64,000 nt of DNA from Vicinamibacterales bacterium. GTDB taxonomy: Bacteria > Acidobacteriota > Vicinamibacteria > Vicinamibacterales > SCN-69-37. Of the stretch, positions 9,830-16,564 are shown piece after piece. The DNA is taken from positions 1,186,368-1,250,367 of the forward strand of contig JAURFE010000001.1 in assembly GCA_030827135.1 (NCBI GenBank). The letters run 5' to 3'. Each line of letters opens with the position of its first letter. The stretch's first letter is position 1. Both the position numbers and the translations under genes were made by a program. The notes under the pieces were generated by a model that did not search any database, was not told where the DNA came from, and saw only the letters and a program-made list of their open reading frames with translations.

Positions 9830-10354
9830 CTACCAGCCGTTCCGTGCGCGTTGCGCGGTGATCTGCGCGACGTGGTGCCGGCCGTGCCACGCGTAGAGCC
9901 CCAGCAGGTCCGTGAGGCTCATCGGCCCCCGCTCAGGGTGGTGCACCGTGCGACTGAACGCGGACGCGTCGAGCGACCCGAGCAGCAGCGCCCACCGCTG
10001 GTGCGTCCCCGTCAGGATGGCCAAAGACGCGCTGACCGGCGCCTGGTTGTCGGCCGTCTCGGCCCACGCGGCCTCGTCATAGGGCTTGATGGTTGGCGCC
10101 GCTTCCGTGAGACCGAGCTTGAAGCGCGAGTACGCGTTCATGTGGCTGTCGGCCAGATGGTGCGTGATCTGCCTCGGGCTCCATCCGCCGTCACGATACG
10201 GTGTGGAGAGTTGCGCGTCGGTAAGGCCGGCGACGGCAGCGGACAAGGCCGCCGGCAGGTCAGCGATCGCCTGGATGCACGCCGCGCGCGCGGCGCCATC
10301 GAGCTGCGATTCACGGACCCACTTGCCGACTGGATAACGAATGTCGTCACTCAT
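9830..10354 (-). CDS. YfiT/BstA-like DinB protein (putative metal-dependent transferase)
   Basis: The ATG at 10354 overlaps the MATE stop as ATGA and begins the conserved MSDDIRYPVGKW. The 174-residue product matches the YfiT type of DinB protein. It has an opening 'RYPVGK' region, a first helix containing ITHHLADSH, and a final metal site WHGRHHVAQI. Some relatives transfer bacillithiol to electrophiles, while others are uncharacterised hydrolases. It is the last gene of a four-gene overlapping operon. Confidence 0.85.
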   Translation of the reverse strand: MSDDIRYPVGKWVRESQLDGAARAACIQAIADLPAALSAAVAGLTDAQLSTPYRDGGWSPRQITHHLADSHMNAYSRFKLGLTEAAPTIKPYDEAAWAETADNQAPVSASLAILTGTHQRWALLLGSLDASAFSRTVHHPERGPMSLTDLLGLYAWHGRHHVAQITAQRARNGW

Positions 10355-11697
10355 ATGGCTGCCATTATGTAATGCCTGCTGCGCCAGGACCAGACCCATA
10401 GCAGCACGGCGCCGATCAAAATGAGTCCCACCGACAGGCCCGTCCACAGGCCCGCCACGCCCCAGCCCCAGTGAAAACACAGTGTGTAGCCGACCGGGAG
10501 CCCGATCGCCCAATGTCCGATCAGATTGGCCATCATCGGCGTTCGCGTGTCACCGAGTCCGCGCAACGCGCCGGTCGTCACCGTCTGCAGTCCGTCGAAC
10601 AACTGGAACACCGAGCAGATGAACAGCAGTACGACGCCTGTCTCGATCACGTGCGGGTCGGACGAGTAGATCCGAATCAGGAACTCGGGCGCAGTAAAAA
10701 ACAACACAGCCGACGCACACATCACGGTCGACGCAATGCCGAGGGACGTCCACCCGGCGCGCCGCATGCCGGCGGCGTCCCGACGACCGACCGCCTGTCC
10801 CACCCGCACCGCTGCGGCAGACGCCAGGCCGAATGGAATCATGAAGATGAATCCTGCGATATTGAGCACCACCTGATTGGCGGCCGCGGCAAGCGGAGAA
10901 ATGCGCCCCGCCAGTGCCGACGCCGCGGCGAACACGCCCACCTCGAACGTGATCTGCAGCGCCGCCGGCCATCCGAGTGTGAAGATCCTCCACACGCGCA
11001 CCGGATCCCACACACACGGCACATCGTGCAGACCGGAGGGGCGGCCGCGCTCCTGGTACACGATCACCGCGAACAGGCTGGCGGCCAACACCACCCGCGA
11101 CGCCACGGTCGCCCACGCAGCGCCGACCACGCCCATCGCCGGTGCGCCGAGGTTGCCGTAGATCAGCACCCAGTTGACGAACACGTTCATCAGGTTCGCG
11201 GCGACAAGCGCAGTCATCACCGGACGCACCAGATTCATCGCCTGCAGGTAGCGACGGAACACCACATAGGCAAACAGCGGCGGCGCGGACCACACCAGCA
11301 ATCCCGCATACGCCTCAAGTTCCACGAGCAGATCCGGGTGAAAACCAAAGGCCGGCAGGCCCCACACACCCACTTGCGCCACACCCATGAGGACGACGGC
11401 GAGGATCGCGGCGAGCTGCAGCCCCGCAAACAACCAGCGATGGCAGTCGTCGATGCGACCGGCGCCGAAACTCTGTGACACAAACGTATCAAGAGCCAGC
11501 AACGTGCCGAAACCAAACACCATGAGGGTCATGAACAGGATGCTGCCGGTGCCGACGGCCCCGATGGCCGCGGGTCCCAGGGGTCCGACCATGACGGTGT
11601 CCACAATGCTCATCGCGAACCAGCCCATCTCGGCGAGCACGACGGGGATCGCGAGCGTGAGCATCGGGCGAAGTTCGCCCGGTGTCGTCCGGGTCAT
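10351..11697 (-). CDS. MATE family efflux transporter
   Basis: The protein has about 448 residues with about twelve hydrophobic segments arranged as two six-helix halves. It includes typical MATE features such as FAMSIVDTVMVGPLGPAAIGAVG in helix 1 and DGLQTVTTGALRGLGDTRTPM in the second half. It should export organic cations or drugs in exchange for Na+ or H+ at the inner membrane. ATG 11697 is preferred because it forms TGATG with the upstream DUF523 stop; GTG codons 3 and 6 bases earlier are possible. It is coupled to the YfiT-like gene downstream. Confidence 0.92.
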   Translation of the reverse strand: MTRTTPGELRPMLTLAIPVVLAEMGWFAMSIVDTVMVGPLGPAAIGAVGTGSILFMTLMVFGFGTLLALDTFVSQSFGAGRIDDCHRWLFAGLQLAAILAVVLMGVAQVGVWGLPAFGFHPDLLVELEAYAGLLVWSAPPLFAYVVFRRYLQAMNLVRPVMTALVAANLMNVFVNWVLIYGNLGAPAMGVVGAAWATVASRVVLAASLFAVIVYQERGRPSGLHDVPCVWDPVRVWRIFTLGWPAALQITFEVGVFAAASALAGRISPLAAAANQVVLNIAGFIFMIPFGLASAAAVRVGQAVGRRDAAGMRRAGWTSLGIASTVMCASAVLFFTAPEFLIRIYSSDPHVIETGVVLLFICSVFQLFDGLQTVTTGALRGLGDTRTPMMANLIGHWAIGLPVGYTLCFHWGWGVAGLWTGLSVGLILIGAVLLWVWSWRSRHYIMAAI

Positions 11698-12620
11698 CAC
11701 CACCCCGTGCCGGTCACGTAGGTCTGGCCGGCGAGGTACGCAACGCCGCAGCGACGAACGTGGTGGCGGATGAGCGTGAGGGGCACAATGCGCGGAATGC
11801 GACCCTCTCGAAAGTCATCGATCGCGGTGAGCAGTTCGTCGCGGTCACCGGCATCGATCTGACCTCGGAAGTATCCCAGCATGTGCATCATGACGTTGGC
11901 GTGTTTCTTCGGCGTCGCGAGCAACGTCATGGCCTGCATCAACCCGGCAGTGTAGGCCTCGCGGAGTTCCTGGCGATCCATGCCCTTCGCATCGGCGACG
12001 AGCCGGCCGAGACGCCGATAGCCTTCCGTCGTGTGGGCAAGCACGGCGAGTTTGTGCGCGGTGTGGAATGCCACAACGCTCCCGACTGTCCAGCGGCCGT
12101 GAAACAACTCCTGAAGCCGGTGGTACGCAGACACCCGTTCGAGAAAGTTCTCGCGCAGACTTTCGTCCTGCAGCCGCCCCTCTTCTTCCACAGGCAGATG
12201 CGGCCATCGTTCCAGCAGGGCCTCGGCATAGAGACCGCGGCCGGACTTCGAAGGAATCCCCGTCTCCTCGTACACCTTCACCCGCGTCAGTCCGCAGCTG
12301 GGCGAATCCTTCTTCAGCACATAGCCCGCGAGATCGTCATCCATGAGACGCTCCACGCGACGCTTCGCAAAACTTCGCATCGACTCCGTGTAGTCACGAC
12401 CGTCGGCCATCACCATCCGCACGTCGTCACCACGCCGAATCAATCTGAGCGTCGGGCGCGGTGTCCCGAGCCCGAGTTCGACCTCCGGGCACACGGGCAC
12501 AAAGGTGACTCGTGCACCGAGAATGTCGGCCACGAAATCGCTGCGTTTGTGTCCACCGTCGTAGCGCACCTGCTGCCCGAGCAGGCACGACGACACGCCG
12601 ACGCGGATGGCCCCGGCCAT
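11697..12620 (-). CDS. DUF523 / DUF1722 domain protein
   Basis: About 307 residues. The N-terminal half is a DUF523 domain (IRVGVSSCLLGQQVRYDGGHKRSDF; SPSCGLTRVKVYEE), with the conserved Cys motifs SSCLLG and SPSCG. The C-terminal half is DUF1722 (GSVVAFHTAHKLAVLAHT; LLATPKKHANVMMHMLGYF). The fusion is common in bacteria and its function is unsettled. ATG 12620 overlaps the RidA stop by one base (TGATG), indicating coupled translation. Confidence 0.9.
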   Translation of the reverse strand: MAGAIRVGVSSCLLGQQVRYDGGHKRSDFVADILGARVTFVPVCPEVELGLGTPRPTLRLIRRGDDVRMVMADGRDYTESMRSFAKRRVERLMDDDLAGYVLKKDSPSCGLTRVKVYEETGIPSKSGRGLYAEALLERWPHLPVEEEGRLQDESLRENFLERVSAYHRLQELFHGRWTVGSVVAFHTAHKLAVLAHTTEGYRRLGRLVADAKGMDRQELREAYTAGLMQAMTLLATPKKHANVMMHMLGYFRGQIDAGDRDELLTAIDDFREGRIPRIVPLTLIRHHVRRCGVAYLAGQTYVTGTGW

Positions 12621-13804
12621 CACTTCACCGCAGTCATCACCAGCTCGACCAGCGCGTTCCGGCTCACGAGGCCCGTCCCCACGGTCGCGCGCGCCGGCGG
12701 TGCGGACGGGAAGAACTCGCGGTAAACCTCGTTCATCGCCGCGAAATGCGACAAATCCGTCAAATAGACCGTGGTGTCGATGACGTTGTTGAACGTGAGT
12801 CCCTGGGATGCCAGCGTCCGCTGAATGCGCGTCAGCGTTTCGCGGGTCTGGGCCTTGATGTCGCCAACGTTGGCGTCAGTATTGCCGAGCACGCCGGAGA
12901 GATAGATCCGGTTGCCCGTGCGAATCGCCGGTGACAACGGCAGGCTCGGCGCCACGGTCGGCCCCAGCACTTCCCGGTCACCCGTCGTCGCCACGAGCGT
13001 GATTTCCACCAGATAGTCGGGCGTCATCAGCGGCGTTACAGCCGTGGCCCGCGCGGGCGGATCCTTCGGGAAATACGTGCGGTAGACTTCGTTCATCTCG
13101 GCGAAGGTGGACTCGCTCGTAATGAACACTCGCGACGACACCACGTTGTCGAGCGTCAGCCCAGCGGTGGCGAGCAGCGTTTTCGCGTTTTCCAGAATCG
13201 TGCGGGTCTGCTCGCCCACCGTCCCAGGCACAAACGTGTCGTCCGCCCCTCGACGTGAAATCAGCCCGGACAGGAATACGAGGCCGCCAGACCTGACGAT
13301 CGTCGAGTACGGCCGGGCCGCCTTGACCCACCCTGCCGGGTGCATCGTCTCGCGTGGGGCGCCGTTCGGCACGGCCACTGCGGCGATTTCGACGAGCGCT
13401 CCATTCAGCAGGTCCGACGCCACCGTCGTGCGAGTCGGCGCCGCATCCTGGAAGTAGGCGCGGTACGCGTCGTTCATCGCCGCAAAGTCGCCCGGGTTCT
13501 TGAGGAACACGGACACACTGACCACCTGCGACAGTGACGACCCGGCTGCCGTCAGAATCTCGCCCATCCGGTCCAGAATCTGCCGCGTCTGCGACGCGAC
13601 GTCCGGGCCGACCAGCTTGCCGTCCGCGCCCGTGCCGAGCAGGCCTGAGACGTAAATCACGCCGTCGGCGGCCACCGCCGGGCTGTACGGTCCAATTGGC
13701 GGCGCACCGGCCGTGATGACGGTCTTTGGTCCTTGTTCCATCGTCTGTGCTCCCTCACACGCAATCAGGGCCAGTGCAGCGGCCACGACAATCGCCTGGT
13801 TCAT
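12620..13804 (-). CDS. Exported protein with three tandem RidA (YjgF/YER057c) domains
   Basis: The 394-residue protein opens with a short hydrophobic leader containing Cys (VVAAALALIACEGAQ), suggesting a lipoprotein or secreted protein. Three RidA-type domains follow at about 27-147, 155-275 and 280-394. Each ends with the RidA Arg/Glu pair: PTRTTVAS..ALVEIAAVA, PARATAVT..YLVEITLVA and PARATVGT..ALVELVMTA. RidA proteins deaminate reactive enamine/imine intermediates as homotrimers, so one chain may mimic a trimer. It starts the RidA-DUF523-MATE-YfiT operon and is divergent from the gene at 13838. Confidence 0.88.
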   Translation of the reverse strand: MNQAIVVAAALALIACEGAQTMEQGPKTVITAGAPPIGPYSPAVAADGVIYVSGLLGTGADGKLVGPDVASQTRQILDRMGEILTAAGSSLSQVVSVSVFLKNPGDFAAMNDAYRAYFQDAAPTRTTVASDLLNGALVEIAAVAVPNGAPRETMHPAGWVKAARPYSTIVRSGGLVFLSGLISRRGADDTFVPGTVGEQTRTILENAKTLLATAGLTLDNVVSSRVFITSESTFAEMNEVYRTYFPKDPPARATAVTPLMTPDYLVEITLVATTGDREVLGPTVAPSLPLSPAIRTGNRIYLSGVLGNTDANVGDIKAQTRETLTRIQRTLASQGLTFNNVIDTTVYLTDLSHFAAMNEVYREFFPSAPPARATVGTGLVSRNALVELVMTAVK

Positions 13805-13837
13805 GAGACTAGAATAGCGTGCTCCAGGAGGTTATCG

Positions 13838-14803
13838 ATGACGATCACACGTTTCGCATTAGCACTCATCATCAGCGGCTTTGTGGTGGCAGCCGTCCAC
13901 GGGGACGTCAGAACCCGACAAAAGACCCAGCTCAAATTTGAGGGCATGATTGGCCGGATCGCGAATCTCGCGGGGGGATCGGCGGCCGCTGACGGCATCA
14001 TCGAAACGGTGACCGTCAGGGGATCCCGAAAATCCGAACTGAACGACCGGACGGGCCGCATTATCGACCTGGTTGAAGAACGCGTCTACGAACTCGACGT
14101 GCGCCGCAAGGAATACCGTGTCGTGACGTTTGCCCAGCTTCGCGAGCAATGGCAGAAAGCCAGGGAAGACGCCGAGCGTTCCGCCAAGGACCGCCCAGCC
14201 GACGAACGCGAGGACCCGGCCGACCAGGGGAAAGAAGTCGAGATTACTCTCGACGTGAAAGAAACAGGCGCACGCAAGTCGATCGCTGGCCACGATGCGT
14301 CCCAGGTGATCATCACGGTCACGGCGAAGGAAAAGGACAAAGCCCTTGAGGACAGTGGCGGCCTGGTCGTCACCAGCGACGTATGGGTCGCACCGAAGGT
14401 GGCGGCACTGGACGAAGTCACACAGTTCACGGTCAGGTTCATCAAGGCGGTGTATGGCGAAGAAGCCGTGACCTCGGCGCAGCAGATGGCGACTGTCGTG
14501 GCGATGTACCCGAGCCTGCAGGAAATGATGACGGAGCTCGAGGAGAAGACGCGCGCACTCGACGGTACGGTGATGTCCACCGTTACCAGGTTTGAATCCA
14601 TCAAGAGCGCCGAAGCCATGAAGCGCACGAGCGCGCCTCCGACCGGGGGTCTCGGCGGCGCGCTCGCCCGCCGGCTCGGCGCCGGTCGCGCGCCCGAACA
14701 GCGGTCGCTCCTGCTGACATCAGCGACCGAGACACAGTCGATCAACACGACGGCATCCGACGCCGACGTCGCAATCCCCGCAGGATTCAAGGAACGCAAG
14801 TAA
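13838..14803 (+). CDS. Exported protein of unknown function (DUF4412-like)
   Basis: The ATG at 13838 is fixed by a strong AGGAGG at 13826-13831; the open frame extends upstream without a ribosome site. The 321-residue product has a signal peptide (ALALIISGFVVAAVHG). A beta-rich region follows (KTQLKFEGMIGRIANLAGG, VYELDVRRKEYRVVTFAQ), similar to exported DUF4412-type proteins, then a highly charged middle. The C terminus is Pro/Arg-rich. It lies 12 bp before the amidase and is likely co-transcribed with it. The function is unknown. Confidence 0.8.
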   Translation: MTITRFALALIISGFVVAAVHGDVRTRQKTQLKFEGMIGRIANLAGGSAAADGIIETVTVRGSRKSELNDRTGRIIDLVEERVYELDVRRKEYRVVTFAQLREQWQKAREDAERSAKDRPADEREDPADQGKEVEITLDVKETGARKSIAGHDASQVIITVTAKEKDKALEDSGGLVVTSDVWVAPKVAALDEVTQFTVRFIKAVYGEEAVTSAQQMATVVAMYPSLQEMMTELEEKTRALDGTVMSTVTRFESIKSAEAMKRTSAPPTGGLGGALARRLGAGRAPEQRSLLLTSATETQSINTTASDADVAIPAGFKERK

Positions 14804-14815
14804 CAGGAGACCGCA

Positions 14816-16564
14816 ATGTCCGAACCGAAGAGCCGCCGTACCTTCCTCAAGGCCGTGCCCGCCGCCGTCGCGGGGGCCGTGGCCACCAACGCGTTTGCGC
14901 AGCAGCCGGGCACCGCCGGGCCCATCACGCGTGAGACTGTCAATTGTGCCGAAACCATCACCGGTCTCGACTTTCACTCAGCCGAGGAAGAGGCCATCGC
15001 CAGAAGCCTCAACGGCAACCTCTCCACCTACCAGCAACTGCGGCAGATCGACATTCCGCACGACACCGAAGTCGCGCTCACATTCCGGCCCTACCTGCCG
15101 GGCAAGAAGCCGGCCGGACCCGCTACGCCAGGACGCGTCGTGCGATACACGAAGCCCGCGGCGGCCACGCTGAAGCGGCCTGCCAATCTCGAAGACGTGG
15201 CGTTCTGGCCGGTGACGAAGCTCTCGGCGCTGATCGAGCGCCGGCTCGTCACCTCCACTGAACTCACGCAGATGTACCTCGCCCGGCTCGAGCGCTACCA
15301 GCCGCTCCTGAACTTCGCCGTCACGATCACGAAGGATCTCGCGCTGCAGCAGGCCGCTGAAGCCGACAAGGCCATCGCGGCCGGTCGCTACAAGGGCCCA
15401 CTCCATGGCATTCCGTGGGGTGCCAAAGATCTCTTCGCGACGAAGGGCATCGCCACCACCTGGGGCGCCGAGCCCTACATCAATCAGGTCCCAGACTACG
15501 ACGCCACCATCGTCGAGCGGCTGCGTGACGCGGGTGCCGTACTCGTCGCAAAACTCACGATGGGCGCACTGGCACAGGGCGATCAGTGGTTTGGCGGGCG
15601 CACACGCAACCCGTGGAATCCGGAAGCGGGATCAAGCGGATCGTCGGCCGGCCCGGGCTCAGCAACCGCCGCAGGTTGTGTCGGCTTTTCCATCGGCACC
15701 GAAACGCGCGGGTCGATCATTTCCCCCTCAACCGTCAACGGCGTCGTCGGCCTCCGTCCGACCTACGGCCGTGTCAGCCGCTACGGCGCGATGGAACTGT
15801 CGTGGACCATGGACAAGGTGGGACCGATGTGTCGCACGGTCGAGGATTGCGTCCTGGTGTTCAACGCGATCTACGGTCCGGACAAACGCGATGAAAGCGT
15901 CGTGGATGCCGCGTTCAACTGGAACCCTGCAGCGCCGCTGTCGGGGTATCGCATCGGCTATGTGCGCAGTGACTTCGAAGCGCAGCCGGCTGGACGAGGC
16001 GGCGGTGGCGGGGGACGAGGCGGCGCCAATGCGGCCCAGCAGCAGGCCGCGGCCGCTGAGCGCCTGAAGAACATGCAGCAGGTGCTGACCGAGATGCAGA
16101 AACTGGGCGCGAAGCTGGAACCGGTTGAGCTGCCGGACTATCCCGCAAACGCGTTGAGTTTTGTGCTCAGCGTCGAGTCGGCCGCGGCGTTCGACGACCT
16201 GCTGCGATCGCGTGGCACCGACACCATGTCCAACAGCTCCTGGCCTGCCACCTTCCGCGCCAACCGGTTTGTGCCGGCCGTGGAATACATTCGCGCGCAG
16301 CGGATTCGCACGTTGCTGATGCGCGAATGGGACACATTCATGAGCCAGTACGACGCGTTCATTTCATCGAACAACGCCGGCCTGGCCGCGACCAACCTCA
16401 CCGGCCACCCGGCGATTGCCGTCAAGTGCGGCTTCGTCAACAACCTGCCGCAGACGCTGATGGTGACCGGGCGCCTCTACGACGAGGCGGCCATCTGCCG
16501 CATCGCGATGGCCTACGAACAGGCCACGGAGTGGACGGACAGGCATCCGACGCTCAAGGCGTAA
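14816..16564 (+). CDS. Amidase (amidase-signature family), Tat-type leader
   Basis: The 582-residue protein has a twin-arginine leader (SRRTFLKAVPAAVAGAV). It has the amidase-signature Ser-cisSer-Lys triad: Lys in WGAKDLFAT (about 203), the Gly/Ser-rich GSSGSSAGPGSATAAG (about 271-286) and Ser in GTETRGSIISPS (about 300). It should hydrolyse amides after folding and Tat export. A GRGGGGGGRGGANAA insert at about 395-410 precedes a helical linker and resembles the insert in the M19 dipeptidase. AGGAG lies just upstream of the ATG. Confidence 0.93.
   Translation: MSEPKSRRTFLKAVPAAVAGAVATNAFAQQPGTAGPITRETVNCAETITGLDFHSAEEEAIARSLNGNLSTYQQLRQIDIPHDTEVALTFRPYLPGKKPAGPATPGRVVRYTKPAAATLKRPANLEDVAFWPVTKLSALIERRLVTSTELTQMYLARLERYQPLLNFAVTITKDLALQQAAEADKAIAAGRYKGPLHGIPWGAKDLFATKGIATTWGAEPYINQVPDYDATIVERLRDAGAVLVAKLTMGALAQGDQWFGGRTRNPWNPEAGSSGSSAGPGSATAAGCVGFSIGTETRGSIISPSTVNGVVGLRPTYGRVSRYGAMELSWTMDKVGPMCRTVEDCVLVFNAIYGPDKRDESVVDAAFNWNPAAPLSGYRIGYVRSDFEAQPAGRGGGGGGRGGANAAQQQAAAAERLKNMQQVLTEMQKLGAKLEPVELPDYPANALSFVLSVESAAAFDDLLRSRGTDTMSNSSWPATFRANRFVPAVEYIRAQRIRTLLMREWDTFMSQYDAFISSNNAGLAATNLTGHPAIAVKCGFVNNLPQTLMVTGRLYDEAAICRIAMAYEQATEWTDRHPTLKA

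Follow-up and report, generated by a model that had tools for sequence, protein, structure and literature searches.

Genes and features at the triple-Rid locus

The feature studied was an open reading frame on the minus strand of the window, i.e., the whole 64,000-nt stretch of DNA that was analysed. The features of this frame and its surroundings are given below, part of the gene calls coming from a crude GC-based caller.

12620..13804, minus strand: triple-Rid protein with a predicted export leader, 394 codons from the ATG, stop codon at 12620-12622
13742..13804, minus strand: leader, codons 1-21, with a hydrophobic core and a lipobox-like LIAC
13739..13741, minus strand: alternative internal in-frame start M22 (ATG), with a GAGGGAG Shine-Dalgarno sequence at 13750-13756
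13364..13726, minus strand: Rid domain 1, residues 27-147, catalytic Arg R125
12977..13345, minus strand: Rid domain 2, residues 154-276, catalytic Arg R252
12623..12976, minus strand: Rid domain 3, residues 277-394, catalytic Arg R372, Leu at the Tyr17 position
13810..13818, minus strand: GCTATTCTA, a possible -10 region just 5' of M1 (one occurrence in 64 kb against 0.06 expected)
11697..12623, minus strand: fusion of a 2-thiouracil desulfurase (DUF523) with DUF1722, its start overlapping the Rid stop codon; local neighbour
10351..11703, minus strand: MATE transporter; local neighbour
13838..14803, plus strand: divergent gene whose product begins like a signal peptide and matches no Pfam family
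14816..16564, plus strand: amidase-signature enzyme with a twin-arginine-type leader

PF01042 was the sole Pfam family in the product of the frame and covered three stretches (E = 1.1e-86). The domains excised singly scored 106.1, 95.4 and 96.4 bits, each above the gathering cut-off of 27.3, which bears out the three tandem RidA domains proposed in the initial annotation. Sequence comparison also upheld its claim of an active-site Arg and Glu in each domain, as Arg, Thr and Glu of the Rid site were all kept in the three of them. Imine/enamine hydrolysis is the activity predicted from PF01042 membership. In the TIGR00004 model (curated cut-off 106.25), the whole protein reached 249 bits summed over three domains and the single domains 98.5, 80.8 and 80.2 bits. 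Rid proteins are encoded at two other places in the same genome: the one at C22:115385 is a canonical, leaderless RidA, and the one at C11:954195 has diverged.

The arrangement of three tandem RidA domains in one chain matches the "3x-RidA" described by Niehaus 2015 (PMC4433059) as "presumably covalently linked trimer units" and exemplified there by EF_0115 of Enterococcus faecalis. The fusion is therefore already known, and export is the aspect that the searched text of that paper omits: the words 'periplasm' and 'signal peptide' were absent from the main text as far as it was accessible. Searches of the open-licence literature brought no exported Rid protein to notice among the papers listed.

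For comparison, 61 ORFs with three Rid domains were collected, comprising the window protein and 60 loci from 100 relatives. Four frames cut at a contig end or incomplete (G002, G076:C6, G060:C85 and G036:C46) and one with two domains only (G049) were left out. The main family consisted of 51 loci including the window, and the remaining ten (L166-L175) formed clade C.

A survey of a RidA-DUF523-MATE operon had been suggested initially. In this set, DUF523/DUF1722 was found near the triple in five and MATE in six of the 61 loci, so these genes are local neighbours and a functional unit of the three was rejected. Homologues of the divergent gene lay beside the triple in 10/61 loci belonging to three families (f1, f3 and f15). 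The amidase-signature enzyme adjoined it in 15/61, six times divergently in the window's own family and nine times on the same strand in f14. Amidase homologues (E <= 1e-140) occurred in 44 of the 100 relatives, including G003, in which the amidase and MATE genes lie next to each other and no match to the triple, the divergent gene or DUF523 was obtained in between. The amidase as an obligate partner was not supported, as it is present in G003 without a found triple and its adjacency is confined to two families.

A predicted export leader across the family

The window leader, MNQAIVVAAALALIAC followed by EGAQT, fits a lipobox (LIAC before E), but its n-region lacks Lys and Arg. By motif, a lipobox Cys stands behind a hydrophobic leader, as in bacterial lipoproteins, and the protein may be lipidated. 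The lipobox, twin-arginine and Shine-Dalgarno motifs were applied in the forms that we take to be the consensus.

Export was evaluated with a custom hydropathy rule, distinct from SignalP, in which an ATG had to be followed, before domain 1, by an uncharged 11-residue stretch with a mean Kyte-Doolittle value of at least 1.9. This rule was passed by 45 of the 61 triples and by 2 of 87 single-domain ORFs, the latter being mostly the best matches to the window protein from other phyla rather than a random sample. When Lys or Arg was additionally required, the counts were 40/61 and 2/87, the window protein failing. Inspection by eye identified three triples without a leader (L128, L162 and L165). 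In two main-family members (L155 and L158), the three Rid domains are preceded by a Haem_bd domain (PF14376, CxxCH), which has a hydrophobic N terminus of its own; c-type haem is attached in the periplasm. These fusions (L155:7332-9095, plus strand; L158:1052-2671, minus strand) belong to family f5 and have lost the catalytic Arg of domain 3 (RRG).

The lipobox Cys was present in 2 of the 51 main-family members, namely the window protein and a 94%-identical relative (L116), so lipoprotein status as a family rule was rejected. By eye, such a Cys was also seen in L166, L169 and L172 of clade C. The earlier description of an exported protein with a Cys-containing leader consequently holds for the leader, which most members have, and fails for a conserved Cys or lipid anchor. 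The two counter-cases considered at that time, an unprocessed leader and unfused single-domain relatives, do not apply across the family, whose members are fused too.

In a sample of 247 genomes of the phylum (Acidobacteriota), 21 had a match at E <= 1e-32, eight of them outside the order, taken here to be Vicinamibacterales, and all eight showed three domains and, by eye, a leader-like N terminus. The window genome encodes Omp85 and TatC, so a periplasm exists. A 94%-identical copy of the triple is carried by a public record labelled Acidimicrobiia (L036), a label that is doubtful given Omp85 in the window genome. A Thioalkalivibrio record contains a single-domain Rid protein with a signal-peptide-like leader (L094:4910-5444, plus strand).

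The start of the window protein was also considered. The Shine-Dalgarno sequence is better before M22 than before M1, where none is clear, and the internal start could also yield a cytoplasmic form. A motif, GNTATTCTA, was found near M1 in all five same-genus loci and in the window ends five bases 5' of M1. It may be a -10 element, which would give a leaderless transcript. In a standard sigma-70 scan, no promoter came up 5' of M1, and the putative -10 at 13810..13818 was not reported.

The 21 leader codons were open, hydrophobic and without indels in the five same-genus loci. Relative to L117, the leader differed at 6, 4 and 12 sites in codon positions 1, 2 and 3, whereas the 30 bases upstream differed at 9, 7 and 8; relative to the closest relative, L116, the leader counts were 4, 3 and 4, and the third-position excess came mostly from the more distant same-genus pairs. 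The intact hydrophobic frame and this third-position bias across the genus suggest that the leader is conserved beyond chance.

These observations bear on the explanation that the working protein, alone or as a second form, starts at M22 and is a cytoplasmic 3x-RidA acting on 2-aminoacrylate released by a threonine/serine ammonia-lyase. Besides the ribosome-binding sites, it agrees with an internal Met ahead of domain 1 in several main-family members, with the leaderless L128 and with a threonine ammonia-lyase gene, a classic source of RidA substrate with no evident leader, which lies near the triple in 3/61 loci and directly downstream of it in two (L120:1252-2217 and L126:7033-8001, both minus strand). 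It is nevertheless unlikely, as the leader codons are constrained across the genus, most members have a leader and many of these no internal Met, two members carry a periplasmic-type haem domain, and the genome already possesses a canonical leaderless RidA. Exported covalent Rid deaminases, with predicted localisation and activity, are the best reading of the triple-Rid family.

Fold, active site and trimer interface

Alignment A1 contained 56 of the 61 triples, four sequences with X and one near-duplicate (L150) having been omitted. The AlphaFold2 model built from these 56 sequences had a pLDDT of 92.3 and a pTM of 0.90, with pLDDT below 50 in the leader only, and it gives the chain as a compact covalent pseudo-trimer, in agreement with the structure anticipated initially. 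Foldseek against the PDB returned chorismatases as the best matches over the whole chain, and VIA-align scored 5a3k_C at Z 27.0 (rmsd 3.0, 282 residues), FBXO22 at Z 15.2 and single RidA chains at Z 13.7. No family beyond these three stood out in this second structural look, in which absence is uninformative.

The single chains of the chorismatases (5a3k, 5ag3 and 4bps) superpose on nearly the whole model with Z of about 27 over 281-283 residues; they differ in chemistry and share 15-17% identity, and the comparison concerns the fold only. As chorismatases are three-part pseudo-trimers with another chemistry, the protein might be an exported Rid-fold enzyme shifted away from imine hydrolysis. 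In line with this, they are the best whole-chain structural matches, the single domains lie under the TIGR00004 cut-off, and domain 3 has mostly lost Tyr17 and, in 10 of the 51 main-family members, Arg. The retention of the Rid-site Arg, Thr and Glu in all three window domains, the low identity to chorismatases and a PDB sequence search listing RidA-type chains make such a shift improbable, and hydrolysis of imines remains the preferred activity.

According to the accessible text of PMC4960622, the ligand is bound between subunits via R165 and T167 with E180 of the neighbour close by, and K136-E182 holds the trimer. The spacing R+2, R+15, R+17 and R-29 mapped these residues exactly onto the canonical RidA of the window's own genome. 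The salt bridge was detected in 84 of the 87 single domains, in contrast to 0/153 domains of the main family and 0/30 of clade C. The catalytic Arg (Arg105 of TdcF) was kept in all three domains of 41 of the 51 main-family members; the loss concerned domain 3 in the other ten and never domains 1 or 2. Most main-family members, among them the window protein, have Leu in place of Tyr17 in domain 3.

The protein therefore resembles archetypal RidA/TdcF in fold and in its Arg, Thr and Glu active-site residues, and differs from it in being fused, predicted to be exported, devoid of the salt bridge and built of three non-equivalent domains. The difference from 3x-RidA was judged by a Bacillota triple (L202) rather than by EF_0115: L202 has no leader and keeps the trimer pair (Lys/Arg-Glu/Asp) in 3/3 domains, whereas the window family has lost it in 153/153. 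L202 came from the single Bacillota genome out of 299 with a triple at E <= 1e-28. At the same threshold none was found in 299 Pseudomonadota or 188 Myxococcota genomes, both searches lacking a positive control.

The age of the fusion was addressed with a domain tree sampling 36 of the 61 triples and 21 of the 87 single-domain ORFs. Over 30 sampled triples, domain 2 formed one clade (SH-aLRT 98) and domain 3 another (99), which indicates that the fusion is old. The domain 1 clade (89) had one single-domain row inside, and two small groups (L166, L168 and L169; L171, L173 and L175) fell outside the main clades. The deep forks, which bear on a single origin of all triples, were weak.

E. coli RidA is reported to act as a holdase activated by N-chlorination under HOCl (PMC4284807, accessible part), and HOCl would reach a periplasmic protein before others, so a chaperone of this kind was considered as well. 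Median Lys content speaks against it, being 2.0% in the main-family triples compared with 4.5% in the 87 singles and 3.6% in 20 singles from the phylum/order, weak evidence because the canonical RidA of the window species is also Lys-poor (1.8%). With the active-site residues conserved in addition, a holdase is very improbable.

Candidate imine sources and the proposed role

A DgaE-like gene was located near the triple in 7/61 loci, all of clade C. In six of the ten clade C loci it lies directly downstream, at a distance of 35-248 bp. The N terminus of this lyase, MLTRRTFFERL, is a twin-arginine-type leader; the protein scored 196.6 bits for the DgaE family, below the cut-off of 385.3. An amidohydrolase was found near the triple in 5/61 loci by the neighbour search, and L170 has one too, overlapping the frame; the clade C enzyme scored 438.9 bits for PRK09237 (cut-off 371). 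In L168, L170 and L174, the Tat-leader DgaE-like lyase, an exported-looking amidohydrolase, the triple Rid and a Tat-leader single-domain Rid are clustered, together with an RraA-like aldolase in the latter two, and this cluster is a possible exported catabolic pathway.

The enamine source in clade C is probably the neighbouring Tat-leader DgaE-type ammonia-lyase. The initial remark that an exported Rid trimer has no obvious job, since reactive enamines are usually cytoplasmic, is weakened insofar as a paralogous exported triple adjoins such a PLP enzyme. Of the 100 relatives, 29 had DgaE-like genes; none was found in the window's genus or beside any of the 51 main-family triples, and such a partner was rejected for the window species. 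One candidate imine source in this species is a DAO-family, amine-oxidase-like flavoprotein with a twin-arginine-type leader (L207, C11:890446), which scored 240.7 for N-methyl-tryptophan oxidase (cut-off 257).

A precedent comes from PMC9537276, in whose accessible part the cytoplasmic deacylase OngB, the PLP deaminase OngC and the RidA protein OngD were all required for GlcNAc1A use. The clade C neighbours offer the same combination of deacylase, PLP ammonia-lyase and Rid protein. The Ong enzymes differ in being cytoplasmic, with a single-domain Rid and a fold-type III PLP enzyme, whereas clade C has a DgaE-like lyase and export-type leaders.

Taken together, the window protein is read as an extracytoplasmic one-chain Rid imine/enamine deaminase, with export and chemistry predicted and a probability of roughly 60%. 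By sequence and model, the three Rid domains, each of its own lineage, build a barrel resembling the RidA homotrimer, with the catalytic Arg, Thr and Glu kept in three inter-domain clefts. The leader would carry the chain across the inner membrane, and lipid anchoring is possible in L116 and the window species. Its substrates would be imino/enamino acids arising outside the cytoplasm, which the protein would hold by the carboxylate and, judging from family chemistry, hydrolyse to keto acids and ammonia. Speculatively, being covalently joined may spare the exported trimer a search for partners on refolding and may prevent mixing with cytoplasmic RidA.

This extracytoplasmic reading draws on the three intact domains, the leader counts, the haem-domain relatives, the constrained leader codons, Omp85 and TatC, the structural model and the salt-bridge loss, as well as on the canonical leaderless RidA of the same genome, the DgaE-like neighbours in clade C and the OngB-OngC-OngD precedent. 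Against it stand the uncharged n-region of the window leader, the better ribosome site at M22, the three leaderless triples, the threonine ammonia-lyase with no evident leader 3' of the L120 and L126 triples, the lack of a DgaE-like gene in the window's genus and of an adjacent one in the main family, the amidase in the triple-less G003 and the single-domain scores below the TIGR00004 cut-off.

A broader scheme, judged less likely than not, is that these bacteria break down amino compounds by way of reactive enamines outside the inner membrane. An exported deacylase and a PLP ammonia-lyase, which would acquire its fold and cofactor before leaving by the Tat route, would be followed by an exported covalent Rid trimer that completes the deamination; the main family might then hydrolyse imines in the periplasm for a range of other exported enzymes.

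With the salt bridge gone from all its domains, the family is a clear case in nature of what becomes of a homo-oligomer interface once the subunits are joined in one chain. Rid proteins are known to protect PLP enzymes in the cytoplasm. An exported branch that is conserved implies imine/enamine chemistry in the periplasm, for which the Tat-leader PLP ammonia-lyase is a testable partner.
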